Assembly (NCBI RefSeq): GCF_005405925.1
Contig: NZ_BJHV01000001.1
Coordinates: forward strand, 930,001-994,000
Origin: Streptomyces antimycoticus
GTDB taxonomy: Bacteria > Actinomycetota > Actinomycetes > Streptomycetales > Streptomycetaceae
Direction of reading: 5' to 3'
Length of the DNA: 64,000 nt
Part shown: piece by piece, positions 20,444 through 46,796 of the stretch
Layout: every line of letters starts with the position of its first letter
Numbering within the stretch: the stretch's first letter is position 1
Position numbers and translations under genes: made by a program
Notes under the pieces: model-generated
What the model saw: the letters and a program-made list of their open reading frames with translations, nothing else
Told to the model about the DNA's origin: nothing
The model's database searches: none

Positions 20444-20734
20444 TGCGTCCTCCTGAACGACCGCGGCGTGGCACCACGTGGGGGGGGTGGTTGGCATGCT
20501 CAGGTCAGCATGATCGCATTCCTTGAGCCGCGGCGGGAGATGTCGTCGTGATGAAGAGTCAGCCAACAGCTATAGCAGGTGACGTGGGGTGGCGCCCAGG
20601 AGGGGGCGGGCGGTGGGCGCGGGACGTGGCGGGTCCGCGGACGGTTTCCGGTGAAATACTCGGCGCCGACCGCGGGCAGCGTTTCCGCAGGGCGGCGCGC
20701 CCGCCACCGTCTCGCAGGCCCGGGAGAGTTTCGC

Positions 20735-21685
20735 ATGGACCGCATCCAGGCACGCCCCACCAGCTGTTGTACGCCGTCGCGCGGCGGCGGTGCGGCCGTC
20801 CCCGCCCCTGCGGCCACGGCACACACCGGCGGCTACGAGACGGACATGGCGCTACTGCCGGGCGGGACGTTCCTGATGGGCACCGAGGACGCGGACGGTT
20901 TCCCCGCCGATGGCGAGGGGCCGGTCCGTGAAGTGACCGTGGCCGCGTTCCGCATCGATGTGCACGCGGTGACCAATGAGCGGTTCGCCCGCTTCGTACG
21001 GGAGACCGGACATGTCACCGAGGCCGAACGGTTCGGCTGGTCGTATGTGTTCGCCGGATTCCTGCCCGCGGCGCTGCGCCGGGGCGCCCCGCGCCCCGAG
21101 GGGACGCCGTGGTGGTGCGGGGTCGAGGGGGCCTCGTGGCGGGCGCCGGAAGGGCCGGGCAGTGAGGTCGGTGAGCGGAGCCGCCACCCGGCGGTCCATG
21201 TCTCCTGGAACGACGCGGTGGCGTACTGCCGCTGGGCCGGGGCCCGGCTGCCCACCGAGGCCGAGTGGGAGTACGCCGCGCGTGGCGGGCTGGTGGGGCG
21301 CCGGTATCCCTGGGGGGACGAGCTGACCCCGGGCGGTGTGCACCGCTGCAACATCTGGCAGGGGCGTTTCCCCGTCAAGAACACGGCCGAGGACGGCTAT
21401 CGGGGGACGGCCCCGGTGGACGCCTTCGAGCCCAATGGGTTCGGTCTGTACAACGTGGCGGGGAATGTGTGGGAGTGGTGCGCCGACTGGTGGTCCACCG
21501 ACCACGCCGACCGGCCGCGCGCCGATCCCGGCGGCCCGGCCACCGGTATCGCCAAGGTGATGCGCGGCGGCTCCTACCTGTGCCACCAGTCGTACTGCAA
21601 CCGCTACCGCGTGGCCGCCCGCACCTCCAACACCCCCGACAGCTCCACCGGCAACCTCGGCTTCCGTACCGTCCGCGACACCTGA
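20735..21685 (+). CDS. Formylglycine-generating enzyme (sulfatase-modifying factor)
   Basis: A 316-residue FGE of the SUMF1 family: LLPGGTFLMGTEDADGFPAD, HPAVHVSWNDAVAYCRWAGA, RLPTEAEWEYAARGG, NVAGNVWEWCADWW and RGGSYLCHQSYCNRYR. The two copper-binding active cysteines are Cys283 and Cys288, with the spacing of characterised actinomycete FGEs. It oxidises the Cys of C-x-P-x-R in sulfatases to formylglycine, using O2, in the cytosol. A Cys-type sulfatase is encoded at 25590 in the same run of genes, the obvious client. The start gives a 30-residue N-terminal extension; a later start cannot be excluded. Confidence 0.92.
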   Translation: MDRIQARPTSCCTPSRGGGAAVPAPAATAHTGGYETDMALLPGGTFLMGTEDADGFPADGEGPVREVTVAAFRIDVHAVTNERFARFVRETGHVTEAERFGWSYVFAGFLPAALRRGAPRPEGTPWWCGVEGASWRAPEGPGSEVGERSRHPAVHVSWNDAVAYCRWAGARLPTEAEWEYAARGGLVGRRYPWGDELTPGGVHRCNIWQGRFPVKNTAEDGYRGTAPVDAFEPNGFGLYNVAGNVWEWCADWWSTDHADRPRADPGGPATGIAKVMRGGSYLCHQSYCNRYRVAARTSNTPDSSTGNLGFRTVRDT

Positions 21686-36074: not shown

Positions 36075-36135
36075 CGACCGATCCTAGAGCGTGCCGGTGG
36101 TGGGCCGCACCGGCGGGCACCACCCGGGCCCCGTC

Positions 36136-36206
36136 CCCTCGGGAGAGGGCCGCCTCCTCGGGAGAGGAGTGCCCCCGGGAGACGAGTGCCCCTCGGGAGA
36201 CGGGTG
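36136..36206. repeat. Four imperfect CCTCGGGAGA direct repeats
   Basis: Short repeats of the form C-C-T/C-CGGGAGA, each followed by C/A-GAGTGCCC or a related sequence, recur four times in 70 bases between the LacI gene and the AT-rich control region. They could be binding sites or simple-sequence expansion; nothing else in this stretch is recognisable. Confidence 0.45.
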
Positions 36207-36237
36207 ACGCGAAGATCGAAACACAAGCGGAATGGAA

Positions 36238-36257
36238 TACTCAATTCAGCTTGAGTA
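36238..36257. promoter_or_regulatory. Perfect 7-bp palindrome (TACTCAA-6-TTGAGTA)
   Basis: TACTCAA at 36238-36244 is mirrored by TTGAGTA at 36251-36257. It lies in a patch that is much more AT-rich than the surrounding DNA, about 43 bases upstream of the predicted -35 box at 36300. It is placed like an activator or repressor site for the cluster. Confidence 0.45.
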
Positions 36258-36269
36258 CCAAGATTACAT

Positions 36270-36287
36270 AAAGCCGAAAGGCTTTTT
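36270..36287 (+). terminator. Small GAAA-loop hairpin with T-run
   Basis: AAAGCC-GAAA-GGCTTT followed by TT forms a six-pair stem with a stable GNRA loop and a short T-run on the plus strand. It lies just upstream of the predicted promoter of the biosynthetic cluster and could insulate it from upstream readthrough. The stem is short, so efficiency is uncertain. Confidence 0.45.
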
Positions 36288-36299
36288 GGCTCGCATCCG

Positions 36300-36328
36300 T
36301 TGTGGCGGAGGTGACGGATGCCTATAGT
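36300..36328 (+). promoter_or_regulatory. Predicted housekeeping-type promoter of the biosynthetic cluster
   Basis: A TTGTGG -35 box (36300-36305) and a TATAGT -10 box (36323-36328) are separated by exactly 17 bases. This fits the actinomycete principal sigma consensus well. Transcription would start near 36335, just before the small upstream ORF and about 310 bases before the 19-residue peptide gene. Confidence 0.6.
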
Positions 36329-36342
36329 GCCGTGAGGTGTAC

Positions 36343-36465
36343 ATGCGACTCCCCGAGCGGATGCTGGACGTCACGCAACGGAGGAAGTGTAGTGCCGCTG
36401 ATTTCCTGGGTGTCCGACCCCGTCGGATCCTTTCGAAGATGCAGATGAGCACGGTGCGCTGCTGA
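36343..36465 (+). CDS. Upstream small ORF (40 residues), possible leader peptide
   Basis: ATG at 36343 lies only about 8 bases from the predicted transcription start, so translation would be nearly leaderless. The product starts MRLPERMLDVTQRRKCSADF and ends in ...STVRC. Two Cys codons, one of them the last codon, and the MRLxxRxxxD opening recall the short actinomycete leader ORFs that control cysteine genes by attenuation. About 75% of third positions are G or C, lower than in the main genes. A second start at 36391 with GGAGG upstream opens a competing 18-codon frame. Function is inferred only. Confidence 0.4.
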   Translation: MRLPERMLDVTQRRKCSAADFLGVRPRRILSKMQMSTVRC

Positions 36466-36647
36466 CCCACAGCGCCTGTCAGTGACAAGATCCCGGCTCG
36501 GTGCGATCACGGCCGGTACGCATCTCTCTCAGGAATCTTTGAAACGGGAGACCTTCTCGTCATCGCGCCCTCGGGCGCCCATGAGTGGCCACGCTGTGCG
36601 CGTGGCTTGGATAACTCCGACCGGCGAGCGAATGGAGGTGACTGAGG

Positions 36648-36707
36648 ATGACAGCCGAGGACTTCCTGGCTTCCCGCGAGGCGGGCGAGGCCGCGACGAA
36701 GTGGTAA
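36648..36707 (+). CDS. 19-residue peptide, candidate precursor or scaffold peptide of the cluster
   Basis: ATG at 36648 is preceded by GGAGGTGA (36634-36641), an exact complement of the 16S rRNA tail at ideal spacing. The 19 codons read MTAEDFLASREAGEAATKW then TAA. About 84% of third positions are G or C, whereas the overlapping longer frame is near 60%, so this frame looks coding. The peptide is acidic and helical with an Ala-Thr-Lys-Trp end. It is the first strong translation signal of the operon and is separated from the enzymes by a hairpin, as precursor peptides often are. It does not match a RiPP class I know. Confidence 0.5.
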   Translation: MTAEDFLASREAGEAATKW

Positions 36708-36728
36708 TCGTCGCAACCGATAGGTAAA

Positions 36729-36764
36729 GGGTGCCGGGCGGATCTCCGTATTCGCCCGGCACCC
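36729..36764 (+). terminator. Strong hairpin between the peptide gene and the enzyme genes
   Basis: GGGTGCCGGGCG (36729-36740) pairs perfectly with CGCCCGGCACCC (36753-36764) around a 12-base loop. No T-run follows, so it may act as a partial terminator or an mRNA-stabilising end. It would let the upstream peptide be made in excess over the enzymes. It starts 22 bases after the peptide stop and ends 34 bases before the next start codon. Confidence 0.65.
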
Positions 36765-36798
36765 CGTCGGGGCAGTGTGTACGAGGGTGGGTGGGACA

Positions 36799-38145
36799 AT
36801 GCTGCACGGACTCTTGAACGAGGAATCGATAAACTCCCTTCAAGGCCAGGAGTATCGTGATCGGATCCAGCGGATAGAAAAGGCGCTGACCGATGCCGCC
36901 GACGGCGACCTCTCGCTGAAGGAACTGGCCGAGTGGGCGGTCGGGCACCGGGACTGGAACGTCAGGCGCCTCGCCGTGGAGACCCTCGCCGCCCGGTTCG
37001 TCGACGCGCCCGAGGCACGGGCGGCTATCACCGAGGCGATCCACGACGACGTCGACTGGGTGGCCTTCACCGCCATCAAGGTCGCCGGCGAGCACCGGGT
37101 CCCGGAGGCGGTGGCCCACATGATCCGCATCTCCGGCTGGCCCAGCAACTTCACCAAGCCCGCCTACGCCCGCAAACCCGTGGGCTGCGGTGCCGCCTTC
37201 ACCAAGCGCGCCCTGCTCGACTTCTTCGAGTCCACCGATCCGGACGAGCTCCGCGAGCTGGAGGACCGCCACTTCGCCCGGCTGCGGGCCACGGTGGACT
37301 CCGCCAGACGCGAACCGGACCTGCGCGATGCCGTGCTGATTCCGGCCGGGCCCTTCATCGCCGGGGCCCGGGTGAACGACATCGGTCCCTTCCAGATGGA
37401 CAACACCGACAATCCGCTGCGCGTCGAGGAACTTCCCGCGTATTACATCGACCGGACCACGGTGACCAACGCCCGGTACGCGGAATTCCTGGACGCGGTG
37501 GGTGGCTCCAGGGAGTTCGCCCACCCCGATGAGCCCAACGGCAAGGACTACACCCCGGCGCATTGGCACGATCCCCGGTTCAACGGGCCGGGCTTCCCGG
37601 TGGTCGGGGTCGACTGGTACGACGCCTATGCGTTCGCCCGCTGGGCCGGAGGCAGGCTGCCCTCGGAGAACGAATGGGAGAAGGCCGCCCGCGGAACCGA
37701 CGGCCGGATCTACCCATGGGGCGACGAATGGAGCAATGACAAGGCACAAAGCGTCTTCACGGCATACGGCCGCGACGACATCCGGAATCTCGCGGAACTG
37801 GAGGAGCTGCTCGTCACCACCACCGTCTCCTGGCCCGAGCGCCCGGTGGCGGCGGCCGACTCCCATCCGGCCGGCGCGAGCCCCTACGGCGTCCTCAACA
37901 TGGCGGGGAACGTCTGGGAGCTCACCCGTACCAATTTCTTCACCCGGGCCGATATGGCCCCCTTCTTCAAGGGGCGTGCGGGGCAGGAATTCATGAACCG
38001 TCCCGAGGCTTTCCATGTGCTGCGCGGTGGGACGTGGACCTCGCCTCCGGTCTGCCTGTCGACCTTCTACCGAGGTAAGGACCTGCTCACCGACCGGCAC
38101 AACGAAGTCGGCTTTCGCTGCGTATACGACGCTTCTGGAAAGTGA
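36799..38145 (+). CDS. HEAT-repeat/FGE-sulfatase-domain fusion protein of the biosynthetic cluster
   Basis: A 448-residue cytosolic protein. Residues about 15-170 are HEAT-like helical repeats (LAEWAVGHRDWNVRRLAVET, then DDVDWVAFTAIKVAGEHRVP). Residues about 185-445 form an FGE/SUMF1 domain: LIPAGPFIAGARVNDIGPFQ, RLPSENEWEKAARGTDGRIY, NMAGNVWELTR and LRGGTWTSPPVCLSTFYRG. The two active cysteines of true FGE are not aligned: RGGTWTSPPVCL has a single Cys, shifted by one. It is therefore not a standard FGE and may be a non-heme iron or copper oxidase like EgtB or PvdO relatives, or a structural protein. The HEAT part could bind a peptide or carrier. It is the first large gene of the cluster. 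Confidence 0.75.
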   Translation: MLHGLLNEESINSLQGQEYRDRIQRIEKALTDAADGDLSLKELAEWAVGHRDWNVRRLAVETLAARFVDAPEARAAITEAIHDDVDWVAFTAIKVAGEHRVPEAVAHMIRISGWPSNFTKPAYARKPVGCGAAFTKRALLDFFESTDPDELRELEDRHFARLRATVDSARREPDLRDAVLIPAGPFIAGARVNDIGPFQMDNTDNPLRVEELPAYYIDRTTVTNARYAEFLDAVGGSREFAHPDEPNGKDYTPAHWHDPRFNGPGFPVVGVDWYDAYAFARWAGGRLPSENEWEKAARGTDGRIYPWGDEWSNDKAQSVFTAYGRDDIRNLAELEELLVTTTVSWPERPVAAADSHPAGASPYGVLNMAGNVWELTRTNFFTRADMAPFFKGRAGQEFMNRPEAFHVLRGGTWTSPPVCLSTFYRGKDLLTDRHNEVGFRCVYDASGK

Positions 38146-38154
38146 GGTTGCACC

Positions 38155-38868
38155 ATGCCGGATGGAGGCGAGCGCGATGTGCTGCGGCAGTCTCTGGTGG
38201 AGGGCATCCATCTGCTCGCGGAGCTGGGCTACAGCGAGGGCATCGCGGGCCATGTGAGCGTACGCGACCCGGAGGACCCGGATGCCTACTGGGTCAATCC
38301 CTTCGGTCTGGACTTCCACCATGTGAGGGTCGACGATCTGCTCCTCGTCGGGGCGCAGGGCACCGTCCTGGAGGGCTCGGGCGAGCTCAATCCCTCGGTG
38401 GACCCCCTCCATGGTGAACTGCATCGCAACCGGCCGGACCTGGTGGCCTTCGCCCATACCCACGCGATGTACGGCAAGACCTGGTCGTCCCTGGGCCGAC
38501 TGCTCGATCCGATCACTCAGGACGCCTGCGTCCTCTACCGGCGGCACGGCCTGTACGACCGGTTCACCGGTCTGGTCAACGCGCGCCAGGAGGGCAAGGA
38601 GGTCATCGAGGCCATGGGCGACGGCACTGCCGTGATCATGCAGAATCATGGCTTCCTGACCGGGGGCCGCTCCCTGGGCGAGGCGATCTGGCTGTTCATC
38701 GTGATGGAACGGGCCGCCGCGTCCCAGCTGATGGCCGAGGCCGTCGGCACGCCGCGGCTGATCCCGCACGAGACGGCCCTGGAGACCGGACGTGCGCTGG
38801 CCAGGCTCGAATTCGCCGACCGGCAGTACCGGAATCTGTACGAGACGACCTGCCGGCGCGGGAAGTGA
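38155..38868 (+). CDS. Class II aldolase/adducin family protein
   Basis: A 237-residue protein with the zinc site of class II aldolases: Glu and His in HGELH near residue 85, HTH in FAHTHAMYG, and His in MQNHGFLTGG. Family members include fuculose-phosphate aldolase, dehydratases in methionine salvage, and decarboxylases. Within a biosynthetic cluster it could make or cleave a carbon-carbon bond on a hydroxylated or keto intermediate. It starts 9 bases after the HEAT/FGE gene and is followed 4 bases later by the monooxygenase gene, so all three are in one transcript. Confidence 0.85.
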   Translation: MPDGGERDVLRQSLVEGIHLLAELGYSEGIAGHVSVRDPEDPDAYWVNPFGLDFHHVRVDDLLLVGAQGTVLEGSGELNPSVDPLHGELHRNRPDLVAFAHTHAMYGKTWSSLGRLLDPITQDACVLYRRHGLYDRFTGLVNARQEGKEVIEAMGDGTAVIMQNHGFLTGGRSLGEAIWLFIVMERAAASQLMAEAVGTPRLIPHETALETGRALARLEFADRQYRNLYETTCRRGK

Positions 38869-38872
38869 CACC

Positions 38873-39936
38873 ATGAAGGTCGGGCTCAACTTCCTTCCCA
38901 CCGTGGGCCCCGGCGAGATGCCGGCCGAGCGGTTCTACGACGAGATCATCGAACTCAGCGAGCTGGCCGACCGGCTCTCCTTCAGCCATGTGAAGCTGGT
39001 CGAGCACCACTTCCACGAGTGGGGCGGATACAGCCCGGACCCGGTGGCGCTGCTGTCGGCCATCGCCCGGCGGACCACCCGGGTACGGCTGGTGACCGGG
39101 GCGGTCACCCCCGCGTTCACCCACCCCATCAAGCTGGCCGCCTCACTGTCGGTCCTCGACAACCTCTCCCACGGCCGCCTCGACGCCGGGTTCGGCCGGG
39201 CGTTCCTGCCCTCGGAGTTCGAGGCGTTCGGGGTGGACATGGCCGACAGCCGGGCTCTGCTGGAGGAGAACGTCGAGGCCGTCGAGCGGCTGTGGACGGA
39301 CGAGGGCTTCCGCTGGGAGGGCCGCTTCCACCGCTTCGGCCCGCTGCCGGCGATGCTGCCCCGCCCCGCGCAGCTGCCCCGGCCACCGGTGTTCATCGCC
39401 GCCACCACCTCTCCGGAGACCTTCACCTGGGCCGCGTCCAAGGGGTACCACCTCATGATCATCCCGGTGGTGGCCAGCCATGAGAAGCTCACCGGGCTTC
39501 TCGATCTGTACCGCGCCACCCGGATCGAGCACGGCCACTCCCCGACTTCCGACTGCATGTCAGCTACCACTGCTATGTGGCGGAGAGCCAGGACGAGGCG
39601 GTGGCGCGAGCCGAGGAGCACTACGCCGCGTACCGGGACAAACAGCTTGAGGCTTACGGGAGTTGGCGCGGCATCACCTCGGACCAGTACCAGGGCTATG
39701 AGCGCATGGAACAGGCGGCTCGCACGACCACGGTGGCCGGTCTGATGGCCGCGGACAACATCATCGTGGGCGGGGTGGCCGAGACCGCCGCCACCATCCG
39801 CCGCATCGGCAAGCTCTACCCCGGTGCCGAGCTGAGCCTGCAGCTGCGGTTCGGGTCCGTCTCGCATGCCGAGGCCATGCGGGCGGTGCGGCTGCTCGGG
39901 GAGCGCGTGCTGCCCGAGCTCATGGAGGGCGAATGA
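38873..39936 (+). CDS. Luciferase-like flavin monooxygenase (LLM), one frame break
   Basis: A monooxygenase of about 354 residues with the bacterial-luciferase TIM-barrel fold: MKVGLNFLPTVGPGEMPAER, SHVKLVEHHFHEWGGYSPDP, and LDNLSHGRLDAGFGRAFLP. The set is typical of the MupA-type subfamily found in peptide and polyketide clusters, which oxidise carrier-bound or free amino-acid substrates with FMNH2 from a partner. The frame breaks near 39544; one added C restores HSPDFRLHVSYHCYVAESQD. The FMN-binding-fold protein encoded at 44296 might supply flavin chemistry. The stop codon overlaps the condensation gene (ATGA). Confidence 0.85.
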
Positions 39937-41327
39937 CCGCGTCCGGCGATCCGGTTCCGCTCAGTCCGCAGCAGGAGTGGATCTGGGAGAGCATGCGCTT
40001 CATGAACCCGGACGACGCGGCGATGACCAGGACCAATGTCTGTCTGGCGTTCACGTTGCGCGGTCCCCTGGACACCGGGCGGCTCGAACGGGCGCTGGCC
40101 GATGTCCGCCGACGGCACGAGGCGCTGCGCACCAGCCTCAGCGACCTGGGCACCGCACCCCACACCCACGTCCAGGACGCGGAGGACTCGCACCCGCCCC
40201 TCCTCGCCCTGGTGGATCTCTCCGGCGTGCCACCGGAGGATCAGGACACCTACTGCGAGCTGATGGCCGGCGCCGAGGAGCACCGCCTCTTCGACTACGT
40301 CCGGGGCCCGCTGTGGCGGGCGACCCTGGTGCGCCGCTCCCCGACGGAGCATGTGCTGGTCCTGTCCGCCGCCCATCTGCTGCTGGACGCACCCTCGGTG
40401 CAGCTGGTCGTCCGCCACCTGGCCGAGGCGTACGAGGGGATCGCCCCTCCGGCCCGGCAGGAGCAGTACCGCGACTTCGTGCGGCGGGCCGCCCGGCCGC
40501 CCTCGGACGCCGACCGGCGTCTGGACCACTGGCGCCGGGTGCTCAGCCCCCTGCCCGCCCCGCTCGACGTCCGCACCGACTATCCCGCGGCCCCACCGCC
40601 GGTCTTCCTGCGGGAGACGACGCCGTTCCGGGCCGAGGCCGATCCGGAGGCCCTCGCCGGGCTCCGCGGCCGGACGGGCGTCACCCCCTATCTGATCCAT
40701 GTCGCGGCCTATGTGGCCGCCCTCGCGGACCTCTGCGGGGCACGGCGCGTCGTGGTCGGATCCACGCTGACCCGGCTGGAGCTCAAACCGGATCCGCATG
40801 CGGTCGGGCACTTCGCCGATCTGGTGCTGCTGCCGATCGAAGTGCGCCCCGAGCACACCTTCGGCGAGCTTCTGGAACGCGTCAGGGACACCGCGCTCGA
40901 CGCCTACGACAACCAGTTGCCGTATCTGCGCATCGCCGACGCGATCGACCCGGACTTCACGGCCAGACGGCCCTGGCCGGCGAGGGCGCTGTACCACGTG
41001 TGGGTGCGCGGCAGCGTCCTCAACGCGGACCTGGGCCCGCCGGAACGCATCGGCGACGCCGAGGTCCGTCCCTTCGAGTTCACCAGGGAGACCTGCTATC
41101 CCATCGAGCTGGACGGCGATCGGTACGCGCATGTCTACGGCCAGAACGTGGTGCCCACCCTCTACGCCGGCCCGACCGGGCTGGAGGGCGAGATGACGTA
41201 CAACCGCGCGGTCTTCACCCCGAGCGGCGCACAGCGCTACGTCGACCGCCACTGCCAGAATCTGGAACACATGCTCAAGGACCCCCAGACGCGGATCGGG
41301 GAGGTGTGGCATGACAGCGGCCGCTGA
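39933..41327 (+). CDS. Stand-alone NRPS condensation domain
   Basis: A 464-residue condensation (C) domain: PVPLSPQQEWIWESMRF opens it, TLRGPLDTGRLERALADVRR RHEALRT follows, and the active site reads SAAHLLLDAPS at about 145-155. The usual HHxxxDG is thus Ala147-His148-xxx-Asp152-Ala153: the catalytic second His is present, but the first His and the Gly are not. It may couple a carrier-bound acyl group to an amine, or use a non-canonical acceptor such as a free small molecule or peptide. It is free-standing, its ATG overlaps the LLM stop, and it overlaps the adenylation gene by 17 bases. Confidence 0.87.
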   Translation: MTASGDPVPLSPQQEWIWESMRFMNPDDAAMTRTNVCLAFTLRGPLDTGRLERALADVRRRHEALRTSLSDLGTAPHTHVQDAEDSHPPLLALVDLSGVPPEDQDTYCELMAGAEEHRLFDYVRGPLWRATLVRRSPTEHVLVLSAAHLLLDAPSVQLVVRHLAEAYEGIAPPARQEQYRDFVRRAARPPSDADRRLDHWRRVLSPLPAPLDVRTDYPAAPPPVFLRETTPFRAEADPEALAGLRGRTGVTPYLIHVAAYVAALADLCGARRVVVGSTLTRLELKPDPHAVGHFADLVLLPIEVRPEHTFGELLERVRDTALDAYDNQLPYLRIADAIDPDFTARRPWPARALYHVWVRGSVLNADLGPPERIGDAEVRPFEFTRETCYPIELDGDRYAHVYGQNVVPTLYAGPTGLEGEMTYNRAVFTPSGAQRYVDRHCQNLEHMLKDPQTRIGEVWHDSGR

Positions 41328-43083
41328 CCCGCCCGGACACGGCCGTCCGGCCCGCACCCACGACCTGGTGCGCGACGCCGCACTACGGTGGCCCAACCGG
41401 CCGGCGCTGATCGAGGGCGCCACCGTCCTCAGCTACGGCCAACTCGACCGGCGTGCGGAAGACTTGGCCCGGGCCCTGGTGGCACGGGGCGCGGCCGGCG
41501 ACATGACCATCGGGGTCGGCGCGCCACGCTCCGCCGAGCATGTGATCGCCGCGCTCGCCGTGTGGAAGGCCGGTGGCGTCTATGTGCCACTGGCGACGGA
41601 TCTGCCCCCGGCCCGGATCGCGGACATGCTGGGAATCGCCGGAGTGCGGCTGACGGTGGGTCCGGGGCTGACCATCAGCGAGGTCGCGGATCCCCCCGTG
41701 GACCAGCCACTCGCCGGTCTGCCGCCGGCTCCGGAGGGTGAGGACGGCGCTGTCGCCTGCGTCTACTTCACCTCGGGCTCGACCGGCCGTCCCAAGGCGG
41801 TGGCCCTCACGCACGCGGGCATCGTGAACGAGGCGCTGTGGTCCCATGACGCCTTCTCGATCCGCCCCGAGGACCGCAGTGGCTGGCTGGCCTCCCCCGG
41901 ATTCGCCATCTCACGATGGGAGTTGTGGACTCCGCTGACCGCGGGCGCGGCCATCGCCGTCTCCGAGGAAGGCCCCGTCCGCGAGCCGGGGGCGCTCCGT
42001 GACTGGCTGCTGGACCAGGGGGTGACCTGGAGCATCGTGGTGACCGGGCTCGCGGAACGGCTCTTCGGCGTCCCCTGGCCGGCCAACTGCCCGCTGCGCC
42101 TGCTGGTGACGGGCGGTGAGCAACTGCGGGTCTGGCCCCGCGGGCTGCCCTTCGAGGTCGTCAACTCCTACGGTGTCACCGAGGCGTCCAGTGTCCGCCT
42201 CGCGGCCCGGCTCGGCCCCTTTGAGGGGTCCACCTTTGAGGGGTCCACCGGACCTCTCCCCTCCGTGGGCCGTCCGATCCGCGGTACCCGGGTCCATGTG
42301 CTCGACGACGCACTGGTCCCGGTGCCCGACGGGGAGGTCGGAGAGCTGTTCATCGGCGGTGTCGGGCTGGCCCGCGGCTACCTCGGCGACCCGGAACAGA
42401 CCGCACGGCGCTTCGTACCCGATCCGTTCCACGGCGGCGGGCGGCGCCTGTACCGCACCGGTGATCTGGTGCGTGTCGATGAGAAGGGGCGGGTGGAATT
42501 CGTCCGCCGGCTGAACGACGACCCGAAGGTCAACGGTGTCCGCGTCGATCTCGCGGCCGTCGAGGCCGCGCTGCTCGCCTCGCCCGGGGTCACCGGGGCC
42601 GCGGCCGCGATCCGTGTCCACGACGGGGAGCGGCCACGGCTGGTGGGGTATCTGGTCGCGGACGACGACCGGCCGGCCCCCGATGAGGTGATCGACGCGG
42701 TCGCCCGGCGGCTGCCCCCTCAGATGGTGCCCGGGGTCCTGGTGCGCCTCCCCTCCCTGCCGCTGCTGTCCAGCGGGAAGGTGGACCGCGGCCGGCTCCC
42801 GGAACCCACGGCGGACATCGTGTTCCGCGGTCGTCCGGCCACGGCGCGGGACGAGACCGAACAGCAGGTCATCGACGTCTTCCGGGAGGTCCTCGGCCGC
42901 TCGGACATCGGCGCCCACGACGACTTCTTCGGCTTGGGCGGGGACTCCATGGGCGTCGCCCGGGTGCGGCAGTCCCTCCTGGAACGGCACGGCATCGACG
43001 TCCCCTACACCCTCATCTTCCGTCAGCGGACCCCGCGCCGGATCTGTAGGGCCGCGAGCGACGGCGGGGAGGAGCCCCGGTGA
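41311..43083 (+). CDS. NRPS adenylation-peptidyl carrier didomain with unusual specificity site
   Basis: A 590-residue protein. Adenylation motifs: A3 FTSGSTGRPKAVAL, A5 NSYGVTEAS, A7 YRTGDL, A8 RRLNDDPKVNGVRVDLAAVEA, and A10 LPLLSSGKVDRGRL with the catalytic Lys. The carrier domain ends in DDFFGLGGDSMGVARV with the phosphopantetheine Ser. At motif A4 the sequence is FAISRWELW, so the Asp that normally binds the amino group (position 235 in gramicidin synthetase numbering) is Ala. This suggests a substrate that is not an ordinary alpha-amino acid. There is no thioesterase. A 15-bp tandem duplication at 42220-42249 encodes FEGST twice. It starts within the C-domain gene and ends in a GTGA overlap with the aminotransferase gene. 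Confidence 0.88.
   Translation: MTAAADPPGHGRPARTHDLVRDAALRWPNRPALIEGATVLSYGQLDRRAEDLARALVARGAAGDMTIGVGAPRSAEHVIAALAVWKAGGVYVPLATDLPPARIADMLGIAGVRLTVGPGLTISEVADPPVDQPLAGLPPAPEGEDGAVACVYFTSGSTGRPKAVALTHAGIVNEALWSHDAFSIRPEDRSGWLASPGFAISRWELWTPLTAGAAIAVSEEGPVREPGALRDWLLDQGVTWSIVVTGLAERLFGVPWPANCPLRLLVTGGEQLRVWPRGLPFEVVNSYGVTEASSVRLAARLGPFEGSTFEGSTGPLPSVGRPIRGTRVHVLDDALVPVPDGEVGELFIGGVGLARGYLGDPEQTARRFVPDPFHGGGRRLYRTGDLVRVDEKGRVEFVRRLNDDPKVNGVRVDLAAVEAALLASPGVTGAAAAIRVHDGERPRLVGYLVADDDRPAPDEVIDAVARRLPPQMVPGVLVRLPSLPLLSSGKVDRGRLPEPTADIVFRGRPATARDETEQQVIDVFREVLGRSDIGAHDDFFGLGGDSMGVARVRQSLLERHGIDVPYTLIFRQRTPRRICRAASDGGEEPR
42220..42249 (+). repeat. 15-bp tandem duplication inside the adenylation gene
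   Basis: TTTGAGGGGTCCACC is repeated twice without gap, giving FEGSTFEGST in a loop between motifs A5 and A6. It keeps the frame. Its codon use (TTT, GGG) is rarer than in the neighbouring sequence. Confidence 0.75.
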
Positions 43084-44299
43084 CCTTCACGGACGCGCCC
43101 AGCAGGCTTCCGGCTCTGGCGAGCCGTACGGACCAGCTCGCGGACTCCGCCGTCGGCGCCGTGCTCCGGCTGACCGACGGCCACGATGTGATCGCTCTGG
43201 CGGCCGGCAGCCCGGCGCCGGAGACCTACTGCCACCAGGAGTTCACCGACGCCACCATCCGCCTGCTGAGCCAGGGCGGCCTGCCGCTGCGGTACGGCGA
43301 CGCGAGCGGCCTGCCCGAGCTCCGGTCGTGGATCGCGGCCCGGGAGTCCGCCGAGCTCGGCCGTCCGGTCGACGCGGGGCAGGTGCTTCTCACCCACGGC
43401 TCACAACAGGGCCTCGACCTGCTGTGCAAGGCGCTGCTCGATCCCGGGGACGTGGTCTTCGTGGACCGGCCCAGCTATGTGGGCGCGCTGCAGGTCTTCC
43501 GTCTCTTCCAGGCCCGGGTGGTCGACCTTCCCCTCGGGTCGGACGAGGGTCTCGACCGGCTCGAAGCGGCGCTGTCGGTGGAGGAACGGGCCAAAATCAT
43601 CTATGTGGTACCCACCTTCGCCAATCCGACCGGCGCCACCCTGGACACCGCGCACCGGCGCCGTCTGGCCGCCCTCGCCCAGCGGTACGGCTGCGTCCTC
43701 ATCGAGGACGACCCCTACCGGGATCTCGGCTACGACACCGTCGCGCCCCGGCCGGCCGCCGCGGCCTCCACCGTGGCCGGCGCCGTACGGATGGGTACCT
43801 TCTCCAAGGTGCTCTTCCCCGCGGCGCGCCTGGGCCATCTGGTCCTCCCACCGTTTCTCACCGATGTGCTGATGAAGTTCAAACAGGCGGCCGACCTGGG
43901 GAATTCGCTTCTGATGCAGCAAGTGGTGCATGAGCTCGTCCAGGAGCCCGGCTTTCTGGCCACCCGGCTGGAGCACGCCCGTCATCTCTATCGCAAACGC
44001 CGCGACGCACTGGTGAGCGCCTTGGCCGGCTCCTTCGAGGGGCTTTGGAGTTCGAGGTGCCCCACGGTGGCTTCTTCGTCTGGGCGAGGCTTCCGGGGGG
44101 CGCCGACGCCACCGCACTGCTGGCCGCCGCGGTCGGGGAAGGTGTCTCCTTCGTACCGGGGACCGATTTCTACGCGACCGGGCCCGACCCGTCCACCCTC
44201 CGGCTGTCCTTCTCCTGCACCCGTGCCGAGGACATCGTCGAAGGCGTCGCCCGGCTGGAACGGGCGTGGCAGACCCTGCGCGCGGGACCCCGCTCATGA
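43080..44299 (+). CDS. PLP-dependent class I/II aminotransferase, one frame break
   Basis: An aminotransferase of about 407 residues, of the 2-aminoadipate/MocR-catalytic-domain group without a regulator domain. It has RYGDASGLPELRSWIAAR, YVVPTFANPTGATLD, IEDDPYRDLGYD and the Schiff-base Lys in GTFSKVLFPAARLG. The frame breaks near 44039: GSFEG must gain one G to continue ALEFEVPHGGFFVWARLPGG. It likely converts an alpha-keto acid to the amino acid used by the cluster. The GTG at 43080 overlaps the adenylation stop, and its own stop overlaps the next start (ATGA). Confidence 0.85.
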
Positions 44300-44787
44300 A
44301 GCTCACCAGGGACGACGACGGAACCTTCCCGGGTCTCGACAAGGCCCCGTTCGACGTGGACGCGTTCCTGGCCCGGCCCCTGGTGGCCCGGCTGGCCACC
44401 GAGGGCCCACGGGTGCGGCCCGTGTGGTTCCTGTGGGCGGACCACGCCTTCTGGGTGCTCACGGGCCCCTGGGCCCGGCTGGAGGAGCGACTGGAGCGCG
44501 CGCCGGTCTTCGAACTCGTGGTGGACTCGTGCGACCTCGCGACCGGCACCGTTCACCAGGTCATCGCCCGTGGCCACGGCCGGGTGGTGGACTTCGACAC
44601 GGACCGGGGCCGCCGCAAGCTCACCCGGTACCTGGGCGAACGGGAGGAGCTGTGGGACGCCCGGTTCAGCCTGCGCGACGACCCGTCCGCCCGGGGCACC
44701 CGCTGGGCCCTGCTGGAGCCCGACACCCTGTGGATCGCGGACCTGTCCTTCCGCCCGCCCCGCGAAGCGCGAACGGACCGCCCATGA
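44296..44787 (+). CDS. Pyridoxamine-phosphate-oxidase-like FMN-binding split-barrel protein
   Basis: A 163-residue protein with the split-barrel fold pattern: FLARPLVARLATEGPRVRPV, WFLWADHAFWVLTG and a GRGRVVD-like strand (ARGHGRVVDFDTDRG). Relatives bind FMN or F420 and act as oxidases, reductases or flavin carriers. In this cluster it could reduce an intermediate or help the luciferase-like monooxygenase. It is coupled on both sides by ATGA overlaps, to the aminotransferase and to the MFS gene. I cannot tell FMN from F420 binding. Confidence 0.75.
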   Translation: MKLTRDDDGTFPGLDKAPFDVDAFLARPLVARLATEGPRVRPVWFLWADHAFWVLTGPWARLEERLERAPVFELVVDSCDLATGTVHQVIARGHGRVVDFDTDRGRRKLTRYLGEREELWDARFSLRDDPSARGTRWALLEPDTLWIADLSFRPPREARTDRP

Positions 44788-46036
44788 GCACGGACACCAC
44801 GGACGAGACGGCGGGCGGGGCCGCCGGCCACCGCACCTACCGCCAGGTGCTGACGGGGAACCCGCGCCTGGCCGTACTGCTCGCCGGCTATGTGGTCTCC
44901 AGCGTGGGCGACGGCATCCTGCTGATCGCCCTGCCGCTGCTGGCCATACGCCACCACGGGCAGCTCTCCGCCCCCGTGGCGGTCGGCCTGGTGATGACCG
45001 CGCCCTATGTGCTGTCGACCGTGCTCGCCCTCAGCATCGGCCTGGGACGGCTGCGACTGCCCACCCGGGCCGTGGTCATCACCGACAGCGCGCTGCGCAC
45101 CGTCCTCTTCACGGTGGTGGGCCTCGCCGCCATGGCCGACCGGATCGACATCCGGTTCCTGGTGGTGGCGCTGCTCCTCGGGTCCGTCCTGCATCAGACG
45201 GCCTCCAGCAGCCGGCGCCTCGTCGCCACCGGTATGGCCGGGAAGGACGAGCTCTTCACCGTCAACGGACTGCTGGGCTTCGCCAACAGCCTGGCGCTCT
45301 ACGTCGTGGGGCCGGCGGTCGGTGGCGCGGTCACGGTCGCGTTCGGAGCGGACGTGGCCGTCCTCCTCGAAGCGCTCAGCTTCCTCTTGCTGTTCGGGGC
45401 CGTCGCGCTCGTCGTGCCGCCACAGCCGAGAGCGCCCCGGGCGGAGCGGTCGACGGAGTCCGGGTGGCGGATCCTGCGGCTGCGTCCCGTGGCCGCCCGC
45501 CTGTTCTTCGTGGTCTTCTTCTTCAATCTGTCCTATATGCCGGTGGAAGTGGCGCTTCCGGTGCTGGTCAACGGGGATCTCCACGGGGACGGAAACACCC
45601 TGGGCCTCATCTGGACCGCCTTCGGCGCCGGGGCGTTGCTCGGCGGGGCGCTCACCGGGTTCCTGCGGAAACTGCACCAGCAGGCCGTCCTGGTGGCGGT
45701 CATCGCGCTGTGGGGCGGTTCGGTGGTACTGCTCGCCCTGGCCCCCTCCGGGCCGGTGGCGATGTGCGCCTTCGCCCTGGCGGACTCATCTACGCCCCCT
45801 TCACACCCATCGCCTACACCTTTGTGCAGTCGGAACTCCCGCCCCATGAGCAGCAGCCGGTGATCACGCTCTGGACCACCGGCTCGACGCTGGCGGCCCC
45901 GATCGGCCTGCCGCTCAGCGGCCCGCTGGTGAGCGCCCTCGGTGCGCGCGGCGGACTGCTGCTCTCCGCGGCACTCACCCTCCTTCTCGTTCCGTTCGCC
46001 GCCAAGGGCCTGCTGGGCCCGCGCCGAGTCGCCTAG
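44784..46036 (+). CDS. MFS exporter of the biosynthetic cluster, one frame break
   Basis: A major facilitator of about 417 residues with 12 predicted helices, beginning RLAVLLAGYVVSSVGDGILL. The layout resembles the EntS/multidrug-exporter subfamily. The frame breaks near 45783; after AFALA one added G restores GLIYAPFTPIAYTFVQSELP. It is the likely exporter or self-resistance pump for the product. The start overlaps the split-barrel gene stop (ATGA). The methyltransferase follows after 16 bases with its own AGAGGAG site. Confidence 0.85.
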
Positions 46037-46052
46037 CCAGAGGAGTGCGCAC

Positions 46053-46796
46053 GTGCAGGGATACGAATCGTCGACCTACGGCGACCACATGACCGACCAC
46101 GACGCCATCGGCTGGCCGGCCGCGAAGGACGAGGACGCGGCGGTCGGGTTCCTCGTGGACGTGGCCAAGCCCGGCCATGCGCTGGAGCTCGGGGTGGGCA
46201 CCGGGCGGGTCGCCCTGCCGCTGGCAGAGCGGGGGGTGCGGGTGACCGGCATCGACGCCTCCCCCGTCATGCTCCAGCAGATGGCCGACAAGCCGGGCAG
46301 CGCACAGGTGCGGGCCGTCGAGGGCGACTTCGCGGAGGCCGCCGTCGAGGGGACCTTCGACCTCGTCTACGCCGTCCAGCACACGTTCTTCCTGCTGCGC
46401 GACCAGGAGACCCAGATCCGCTGCTTCCAGAACGTGGCCGCGCGGCTGGCCCCCGGTGGCGCCTTCGTCCTCCAGCTGTTCGTCCCCGATCCGCACCGGC
46501 TGATCCAGCCGCAGGCCAGCGACGCCCTTCATGTGGCACTCGACCAGGTGGTCCTGCGGGTCTCGAAGTTCGACCGGGTGACGCAGACGGTCAACCGGCA
46601 GTACGTCGCGATCACCGAGGGCGGGACGAAGCTGTACCCCATGGTGTTCCGCTACGCGTGGCCCACCGAGCTGGACCTGATGGCACGGCTGGCGGGCCTC
46701 CGGCTGGAAGGGCGCTGGGACGGCTGGTCGCGGGCGCCCTTCACCGCGGAGGGCGGGTATGTCGTGGTCTACCGGAAGCCCGCCGAGGCGGTGTGA
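46053..46796 (+). CDS. SAM-dependent methyltransferase (class I), last gene of the cluster
   Basis: A 247-residue methyltransferase starting with GTG 46053 after AGAGGAG. Motif I is ALELGVGTGRVALPLAERG near residue 43; VTGIDASPVMLQQM binds the SAM ribose, and FDLVYAVQHTFFLL is motif II. The family includes small-molecule N- and O-methyltransferases. It ends the plus-strand cluster and is convergent with the Gfo/Idh gene, with only 4 bases between. Methylation of the amino, hydroxy or amide group of the product is a reasonable inference. Confidence 0.88.
   Translation: MQGYESSTYGDHMTDHDAIGWPAAKDEDAAVGFLVDVAKPGHALELGVGTGRVALPLAERGVRVTGIDASPVMLQQMADKPGSAQVRAVEGDFAEAAVEGTFDLVYAVQHTFFLLRDQETQIRCFQNVAARLAPGGAFVLQLFVPDPHRLIQPQASDALHVALDQVVLRVSKFDRVTQTVNRQYVAITEGGTKLYPMVFRYAWPTELDLMARLAGLRLEGRWDGWSRAPFTAEGGYVVVYRKPAEAV

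Follow-up and report, generated by a model that had tools for sequence, protein, structure and literature searches.

Pyrroloquinoline quinone (PQQ) and mycofactocin are made from very short precursor peptides, PqqA and MftA, with a two-residue core that is processed oxidatively with radical S-adenosylmethionine (SAM) enzymes. Known substrates of enzymes with the formylglycine-generating enzyme (FGE) fold are Cys residues of sulfatases and small thiols, and EgtB-type enzymes carry a DinB-like iron domain. The pearlins (3-thiaglutamate, 3-thiahomoleucine and the ammosamides) are amino acid-derived products built at the end of a peptide carrier of ribosomal origin, from which they are later released; the amino acid is added from aminoacyl-tRNA by a peptide aminoacyl-tRNA ligase (PEARL) (PMC9303977). 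Here we describe a locus of Streptomyces antimycoticus in which a 19-codon open reading frame (ORF) ending in Lys-Trp precedes a gene for a protein with HEAT repeats and an FGE-type domain, the HEAT/FGE protein. The locus spans positions 36238-46796 of the window, by which we mean the whole stretch analysed, 64,000 nucleotides (nt) of the forward strand of assembly GCF_005405925.1 (contig NZ_BJHV01000001.1, positions 930,001-994,000).

We suggest that the locus probably encodes a pathway resembling those of ribosomally synthesised and post-translationally modified peptides (RiPPs) and acting on an ultra-short precursor. In brief, the Lys-Trp end would be oxidised by the HEAT/FGE protein, and the modified unit would be released, tailored, coupled and exported. 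The evidence covers gene anatomy, conservation, selection, co-occurrence and predicted fold.

Searching genome contigs with the HEAT/FGE protein yielded 74 loci, referred to by L numbers. The conservation counts cover Actinobacteria and Bacillota; FGE matches in other groups (L030-L033, L035-L067, L069-L081) fall outside them. Loci L008-L028 are all actinobacterial and match with 56-98% identity in their best segments; a like 19-residue ORF lies upstream in every one of them. F6, R10, K18 and W19 are invariant across the 22 copies of this peptide type (family A) that were compared, the window's included. For the counts, an ORF had to encode 15-35 residues, end in Lys-Trp plus 0-2 residues and lie at most 520 nt upstream of the HEAT/FGE gene, and duplicate loci were dropped. 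Such an ORF is found at 41 of 41 distinct actinobacterial loci, with a Shine-Dalgarno sequence at 39. As a control, 370 other ORF starts from the same actinobacterial loci, duplicates retained, were searched over 450 nt upstream for an ORF of 15-35 residues that is preceded by a Shine-Dalgarno sequence and ends in Lys-Trp plus 0-2 residues. None had one, and the occurrence of the Lys-Trp ORF beside the HEAT/FGE gene thus exceeds chance. A strict ORF pattern applied to the loci also picked up two chance-like ORFs outside Actinobacteria and Bacillota (L048, L066) and, in L010, an ORF on the opposite strand.

The ratio of nonsynonymous to synonymous differences (pN/pS) of the ORF is 0.23 in clade 1 (36 pairs, 9 sequences) and 0.58 in clade 2 (28 pairs, 8 sequences), the latter being the weaker evidence of the two. 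The two shifted frames gave 1.46-2.32. The short ORF of family A is under purifying selection. The initial annotation had let its peptide idea depend on conservation of the ORF and purifying selection on it next to the HEAT/FGE gene. Both were found, with all 41 distinct actinobacterial loci holding the ORF, and the family reaches beyond Streptomyces to other actinomycetes and to Bacillota.

A match to the HEAT/FGE protein at E <= 1e-30 is present in 19 of 392 Streptomyces genomes, one of these being a fragment, and in 4 of 394 genomes of a class-wide draw. The 19-mer itself, used as query against these 392 genomes in a search with too low a sensitivity for more distant peptides, gave matches in nine genomes at E <= 1. 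Six are strong, and each directly adjoins the HEAT/FGE match on its upstream side; one weak match also stands beside it (genome G665), and the other two are weak and chance-like. In a close relative (L102, genome G447) the 19-residue ORF is intact and the HEAT/FGE match is limited to residues 1-79. Its small size could let the peptide gene escape annotation, and four public plasmid records (L104, L105, L106, L131), whose gene tables are incomplete, do not list it at that place.

We found four types of leader. Family A reads M(S/T)xxxF(L/I/M)xxRxxx...KW and ends in (T/S/H)KW, with the variants KWEA and KWEG (L094, L096, L098) and a looser member in L099. Family B reads MKTLRQWNALRSQRKGGVRPAGxxFKWAA (L083, L084, L100, L105), with FKWAA or FKWTA ends and a relative in Actinomadura (L029). 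Family C reads M(S/T)YGSQWEKA...DADKW (L101, L131), and family D, from Bacillota, reads (K/R)NWR...KW(G) (L034, L129, L130). Common to all four are an early aromatic residue, Lys-Trp at or near the end and, mostly, a hairpin after the stop codon. Families B, C and D have hairpins of unrelated sequence at the same place. The pairing of Lys-Trp with the HEAT/FGE protein outlasts the change of leader, as would be expected of a precursor made of leader and core.

Three of the four Bacillota loci have a Lys-Trp ORF (L034, L129, L130). L034 and L068 gave no ORF by the 520-nt rule. The ORF of L034, missed also by a loose scan, was found about 1 kb upstream on reading the translation, and the sequence that separates it from the FGE gene resembles, by eye, a transposase remnant. 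In L130 an IS66-type transposase gene parts the peptide from the FGE gene and an ISL3-type one splits the FGE gene. These insertions suggest decay of the two clusters. Counting the 41 actinobacterial loci and L131, an additional Streptomyces plasmid with the ORF, 45 of 46 loci have a Lys-Trp ORF beside the HEAT/FGE gene.

An ORF placed before an operon, with a hairpin mostly following, is also the layout expected of an attenuator. The short ORF might be a regulatory leader whose translation responds to Trp-tRNA, Lys-tRNA or a metabolite and governs read-through beyond the hairpin into the enzyme genes, the operon product being unrelated to the peptide. A Trp codon does stand at or near the end of the ORF, and some pairing between ORF and intergenic RNA occurred in 12 of 12 folded sequences, a count made with no shuffle control. 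However, selection keeps the amino acids and not just the codons, a single near-terminal Trp codon is weak for attenuation, and Lys-Trp is followed by 0-2 residues in the four leaders, so that its distance to the stop varies. The ORF also travels with the HEAT/FGE gene regardless of the remaining pathway. The transposase-like sequences between peptide and FGE gene in L034 and L130 point the same way and carry little weight, these loci possibly being decayed. We regard a regulatory leader as unlikely.

The control region itself partly agrees with the initial annotation. The 19-codon ORF, its Shine-Dalgarno sequence, the downstream hairpin and the named enzyme genes are all present (Table 1), the hairpin stem having 15 pairs rather than 12. 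The reported good promoter was not recovered: a sigma-70 consensus scan of 36075-36830 gave no promoter-like site, nor any U-tract terminator, and the missing U-tract after the window hairpin is a further point against attenuation. Among 18 regions folded against mononucleotide shuffles, the hairpin has a z-score of -2.3 in the window and is weak in L099 (-0.7), L104 (-1.9) and L098 (-2.0). An Rfam scan of 36075-36900 gave a single sub-threshold match, which we take as chance. At about 36370-36440 one frame reads AADFLGVR, like AEDFLASR of the peptide, with no start codon at the matching place; it is possibly a decayed second copy of the peptide, or chance.

The HEAT/FGE protein has the FGE-sulfatase fold. 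Its AlphaFold2 model has a mean predicted local distance difference test (pLDDT) score of 92.2, and its structural neighbours are CalU17, EgtB and FGE folds, the aligned part spanning mainly residues 172-447. It shares its fold with FGE and differs in having an added N-terminal HEAT domain and no Cys pair near the C-terminus: it reads RGGTWTSPPVCLSTF, where the FGEs of the same genome (L004, L005) read RGGSYLCHQSYC and RGGSYLCHASYC. We take the Cys pair of the latter two to be copper-binding. L004 lies in the window too (20579-21685) and, unlike the HEAT/FGE protein, retains the pair as LCHxSYC. In comparison with the EgtB, OvoA and SenA sulfoxide and selenoxide synthases, HEAT repeats replace the DinB-like iron domain, and the EgtB family model scores 90 bits, below its cut-off of 360. 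CalU17, a 292-residue chain from the calicheamicin cluster, aligns with the FGE part only. The literature looked at, as far as available to us, gave no function for CalU17, and we know of no short peptide paired with it.

In having a conserved short ORF that is under selection next to a candidate for its modification, the locus agrees with RiPP loci, and from the genes alone we would place the system among RiPPs or scaffold peptides. It is like PQQ and mycofactocin in precursor size, and the core here would be Lys-Trp. No radical SAM enzyme was found among the cluster genes with Pfam and NCBIfam, nor was a PEARL-type domain. With the pearlins the system would have in common an amino acid-derived product formed at the end of a ribosomal peptide and released from it. 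They differ in that Lys-Trp is gene-encoded here and the likely maturase is of the FGE type.

For 32 actinobacterial loci with enough flanking sequence we compared the neighbouring genes. A homologue of the split-barrel flavoprotein is present in 31 (the exception being L120) and an exporter of the major facilitator superfamily (MFS) or LysE type in 27. Homologues of the adenylation-carrier didomain and the condensation domain, the nonribosomal peptide synthetase (NRPS) parts, are found in eight (the window, L008-L011, L014, L015, L018). The constant unit is the peptide with the HEAT/FGE gene; split barrel and exporter are common, and at least three kinds of amide-forming enzyme occur.

The close relatives L008-L011 have all nine enzyme genes in common with the window. 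L014, L015, L018, L021 and S. clavuligerus L104 retain the aldolase, luciferase-like, pyridoxal phosphate (PLP) and split-barrel genes and differ in the other partners. Methyltransferase homologues are found in L014, L015, L018 and L116-L118. The last three combine FGE, split barrel, MFS exporter, methyltransferase and P450, and L116 adds an L-amino-acid ligase. Clade 2 clusters encode a metallo-beta-lactamase fold protein, an esterase, an asparagine-synthase-like protein, an unknown protein, an aldehyde dehydrogenase (with aminobutyraldehyde dehydrogenase as its closest family, at 435 bits, below the cut-off of 615), a GntG-family aldolase (271 bits, cut-off 230) and a split barrel. L106, from this clade, adjoins a DdaF-like ATP-grasp ligase (202 bits, cut-off 840) and a PhyH dioxygenase. 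L119 has an EgtD-like methyltransferase. The smallest clusters seen are L129, with MFS exporter, peptide and FGE within the 11 kb examined, and L012 and L013, with peptide, FGE, split barrel (sub-cut-off in Pfam in L013) and a LysE-type exporter followed by unrelated genes.

Family B clusters have PhyH, a second HEAT/FGE gene, an MFS exporter and a split barrel, and Siminovitchia L034 has PhyH, a second FGE gene and an MFS exporter. The two HEAT/FGE-type genes and PhyH lie at 9971-13490 in L105 and at 6518-11278 in L034. Repeated oxidation of one peptide is possible in these clusters. Several clusters are found on large Streptomyces plasmids (L104, L105, L106, L131 and L132, including S. clavuligerus pSCL4, S. 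coelicoflavus, S. xanthophaeus and others), and for this reason plasmid-borne spread is possible.

The distribution of the partners also bears on how the peptide is used. The initial annotation offered two readings, of which the peptide as substrate of the FGE-like enzyme near its C-terminal Trp appears the best supported, with the addition that Lys is kept jointly with Trp. The other, in which the peptide is a carrier whose C-terminus is extended by the adenylation-carrier didomain and the condensation domain, draws on the presence of these genes in one operon that has no thioesterase. It fares poorly, and we consider it very improbable: homologues of the NRPS genes are missing from 24 of the 32 loci that have the peptide, and KWEA, KWEG, KWAA, KWTA and KWG ends continue past Trp, leaving it non-terminal. 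A third view is that the peptide is modified by the HEAT/FGE protein and the modified form is a cofactor, as for the quinone-type peptide cofactors, or a signal, and is not a source of product atoms. In its favour are the two-residue core within an ultra-short peptide, as in PqqA and MftA, the redox nature of the partner enzymes, and the minimal clusters, which hold little more. Exporters, in turn, occur in each leader family as well as in most of the loci compared, suggesting secretion, and we hold a cofactor or signal to be quite improbable.

The reading that we favour is a Lys-Trp unit that would be oxidised on the peptide and then released. In brief, the 19-residue peptide would be translated, as its Shine-Dalgarno sequence and codon-level selection suggest, and the HEAT/FGE protein would probably recognise it through the N-terminal part with the conserved aromatic residue. 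The FGE-type domain would then oxidise the Lys-Trp end, at Trp, at Lys or by forming a Lys-Trp bond. In most of the actinobacterial clusters the split-barrel flavoprotein may carry out a further redox reaction, and peptidases, perhaps those of the host, would free the modified residue or dipeptide. According to lineage, this unit would be exported unaltered, or else tailored and joined to a second acid. In the present cluster the luciferase-like monooxygenase, the aldolase, the PLP enzyme and the methyltransferase would tailor the released unit. The adenylation-carrier didomain would load the second acid, the stand-alone condensation domain would couple it to the free amine, and the MFS protein would export the product. 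VibH is a stand-alone condensation domain that joins a carrier-bound acid to a free amine, and because the coupling would be VibH-like no thioesterase would be needed. The unrelatedness of the amide-forming partners (adenylation-carrier and condensation proteins, L-amino-acid ligase, DdaF-like ATP-grasp ligase) fits a small amino acid-like core that is subsequently conjugated.

The pointers to the modified residue conflict. LysE-type exporters (L012, L013), the MppQ/GntC-like PLP enzyme and the GntG-family aldolase with its aminobutyraldehyde-dehydrogenase-like partner point to Lys; the aldolase and dehydrogenase of clade 2 would fit retro-aldol cleavage of beta-hydroxylysine. The P450s and the EgtD-like methyltransferase point to Trp. 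Joint conservation of Lys and Trp is compatible with a Lys-Trp bond.

Some observations weigh against the proposed pathway, as do the attenuator-like layout and the RNA pairing mentioned above. With the Cys pair absent, homology to FGE may not predict the cofactor or the chemistry of the HEAT/FGE protein. Pfam and NCBIfam scans gave no match to a peptidase or RiPP recognition element among the window genes. Five of the 32 loci (L021, L104, L119, L121, L122) have no exporter of the MFS or LysE type, and at E <= 0.01 no split-barrel homologue was found in L120 and L131 of family C or in the Bacillota loci L034, L068, L129 and L130. It should be noted that the rule behind the count of 41 demands Lys-Trp and hence is blind to variants; no locus among the 41 was without such an ORF. 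The ORFs of L013 and L099 have no Shine-Dalgarno sequence by the rule, and the start in L099 is uncertain. L068 has no Lys-Trp ORF, and the FGE there is a fragment.

Table 1. Features of the locus (positions in the window)
Feature	Position	Strand	Evidence
Shine-Dalgarno of short ORF, GGAGGTGA	36634..36641	+	sequence
Precursor peptide gene, 19 codons, ATG start, MTAEDFLASREAGEAATKW	36648..36707	+	conservation, pN/pS
15-pair hairpin between peptide gene and enzyme genes	36729..36764	+	folding
HEAT-repeat and FGE/SUMF1-type oxidase, proposed peptide maturase	36799..38145	+	Pfam FGE-sulfatase 4e-46, HEAT_2 3.8e-8
Class II aldolase/adducin family protein	38155..38868	+	Aldolase_II 4.4e-41; PRK06208 282.5 bits, cut-off 255
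Luciferase-like monooxygenase, internal frame change	38873..39933	+	Bac_luciferase 3.5e-44 (first piece)
Stand-alone NRPS condensation domain	39930..41327	+	Condensation 8.9e-39
NRPS adenylation domain and carrier protein	41311..43083	+	AMP-binding 4.3e-64, PP-binding 1.4e-11
PLP enzyme (class I/II), MocR/MppQ/GntC-like, internal frame change	43080..44296	+	Aminotran_1_2 1e-26 (first piece); NCBIfam neighbours all below cut-off
Split-barrel (PNPOx-type) flavoprotein	44293..44787	+	PNPOx_N 6.3e-6, 27.0 bits, below cut-off 28.1
MFS exporter, internal frame change	44769..46036	+	MFS_1 7.3e-17 (first piece)
SAM methyltransferase, start approximate	46086..46796	+	weak daptide_MTase match, 71 bits, cut-off 175

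The initial annotation counted ten coupled genes. Nine enzyme genes were named and found, and the count of ten perhaps includes the short ORF. NRPS condensation, adenylation and carrier domains are all present by Pfam. Pfam and NCBIfam scans of the window genes gave no thioesterase or reductase release domain and no described RiPP maturase class above a curated cut-off, the initial annotation having likewise noted no thioesterase and no known RiPP maturase; the methyltransferase matches a RiPP methyltransferase, that of the daptides, below cut-off. Four window genes have a frame change, namely the luciferase-like, PLP and MFS genes and an upstream LacI-type gene. These breaks are probably assembly errors, because each is within a run of G or C and all four genes are intact in the close relatives L008 and L009.

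In the adenylation domain, Ala stands at the first pocket position, where Asp is usual, and the same holds for L008-L011 and L018, by alignment to LgrA and motif positions (L015 was excluded, as the cut region missed the motif). This position is presumably the one that binds the alpha-amino group. The substrate may be other than an ordinary alpha-amino acid.

Openly licensed literature, mostly at abstract level, gave no description of a Lys-Trp peptide paired with a HEAT/FGE protein. For the family as a whole, we put forward an evenly balanced conjecture, a RiPP class across Actinomycetota and Bacillota: the HEAT/FGE protein acts on the Lys-Trp of an ultra-short gene-encoded peptide, possibly linking the side chains, to give a secreted amino acid or dipeptide warhead or a quinone-like cofactor that unrelated ligases, differing by lineage, couple to other amino acids. 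If this is true, the HEAT/FGE protein would be an FGE-type RiPP maturase, of which none was found described in the literature available to us, and the system a counterpart of the pearlins that is free of a tRNA-dependent ligase. The system would serve as a test case of whether FGE-fold enzymes can oxidise Lys or Trp of a peptide. Searching genomes for the HEAT/FGE gene could reveal a family of hitherto unseen small products in Streptomyces, including S. clavuligerus (L104), in other actinomycetes and in bacilli.

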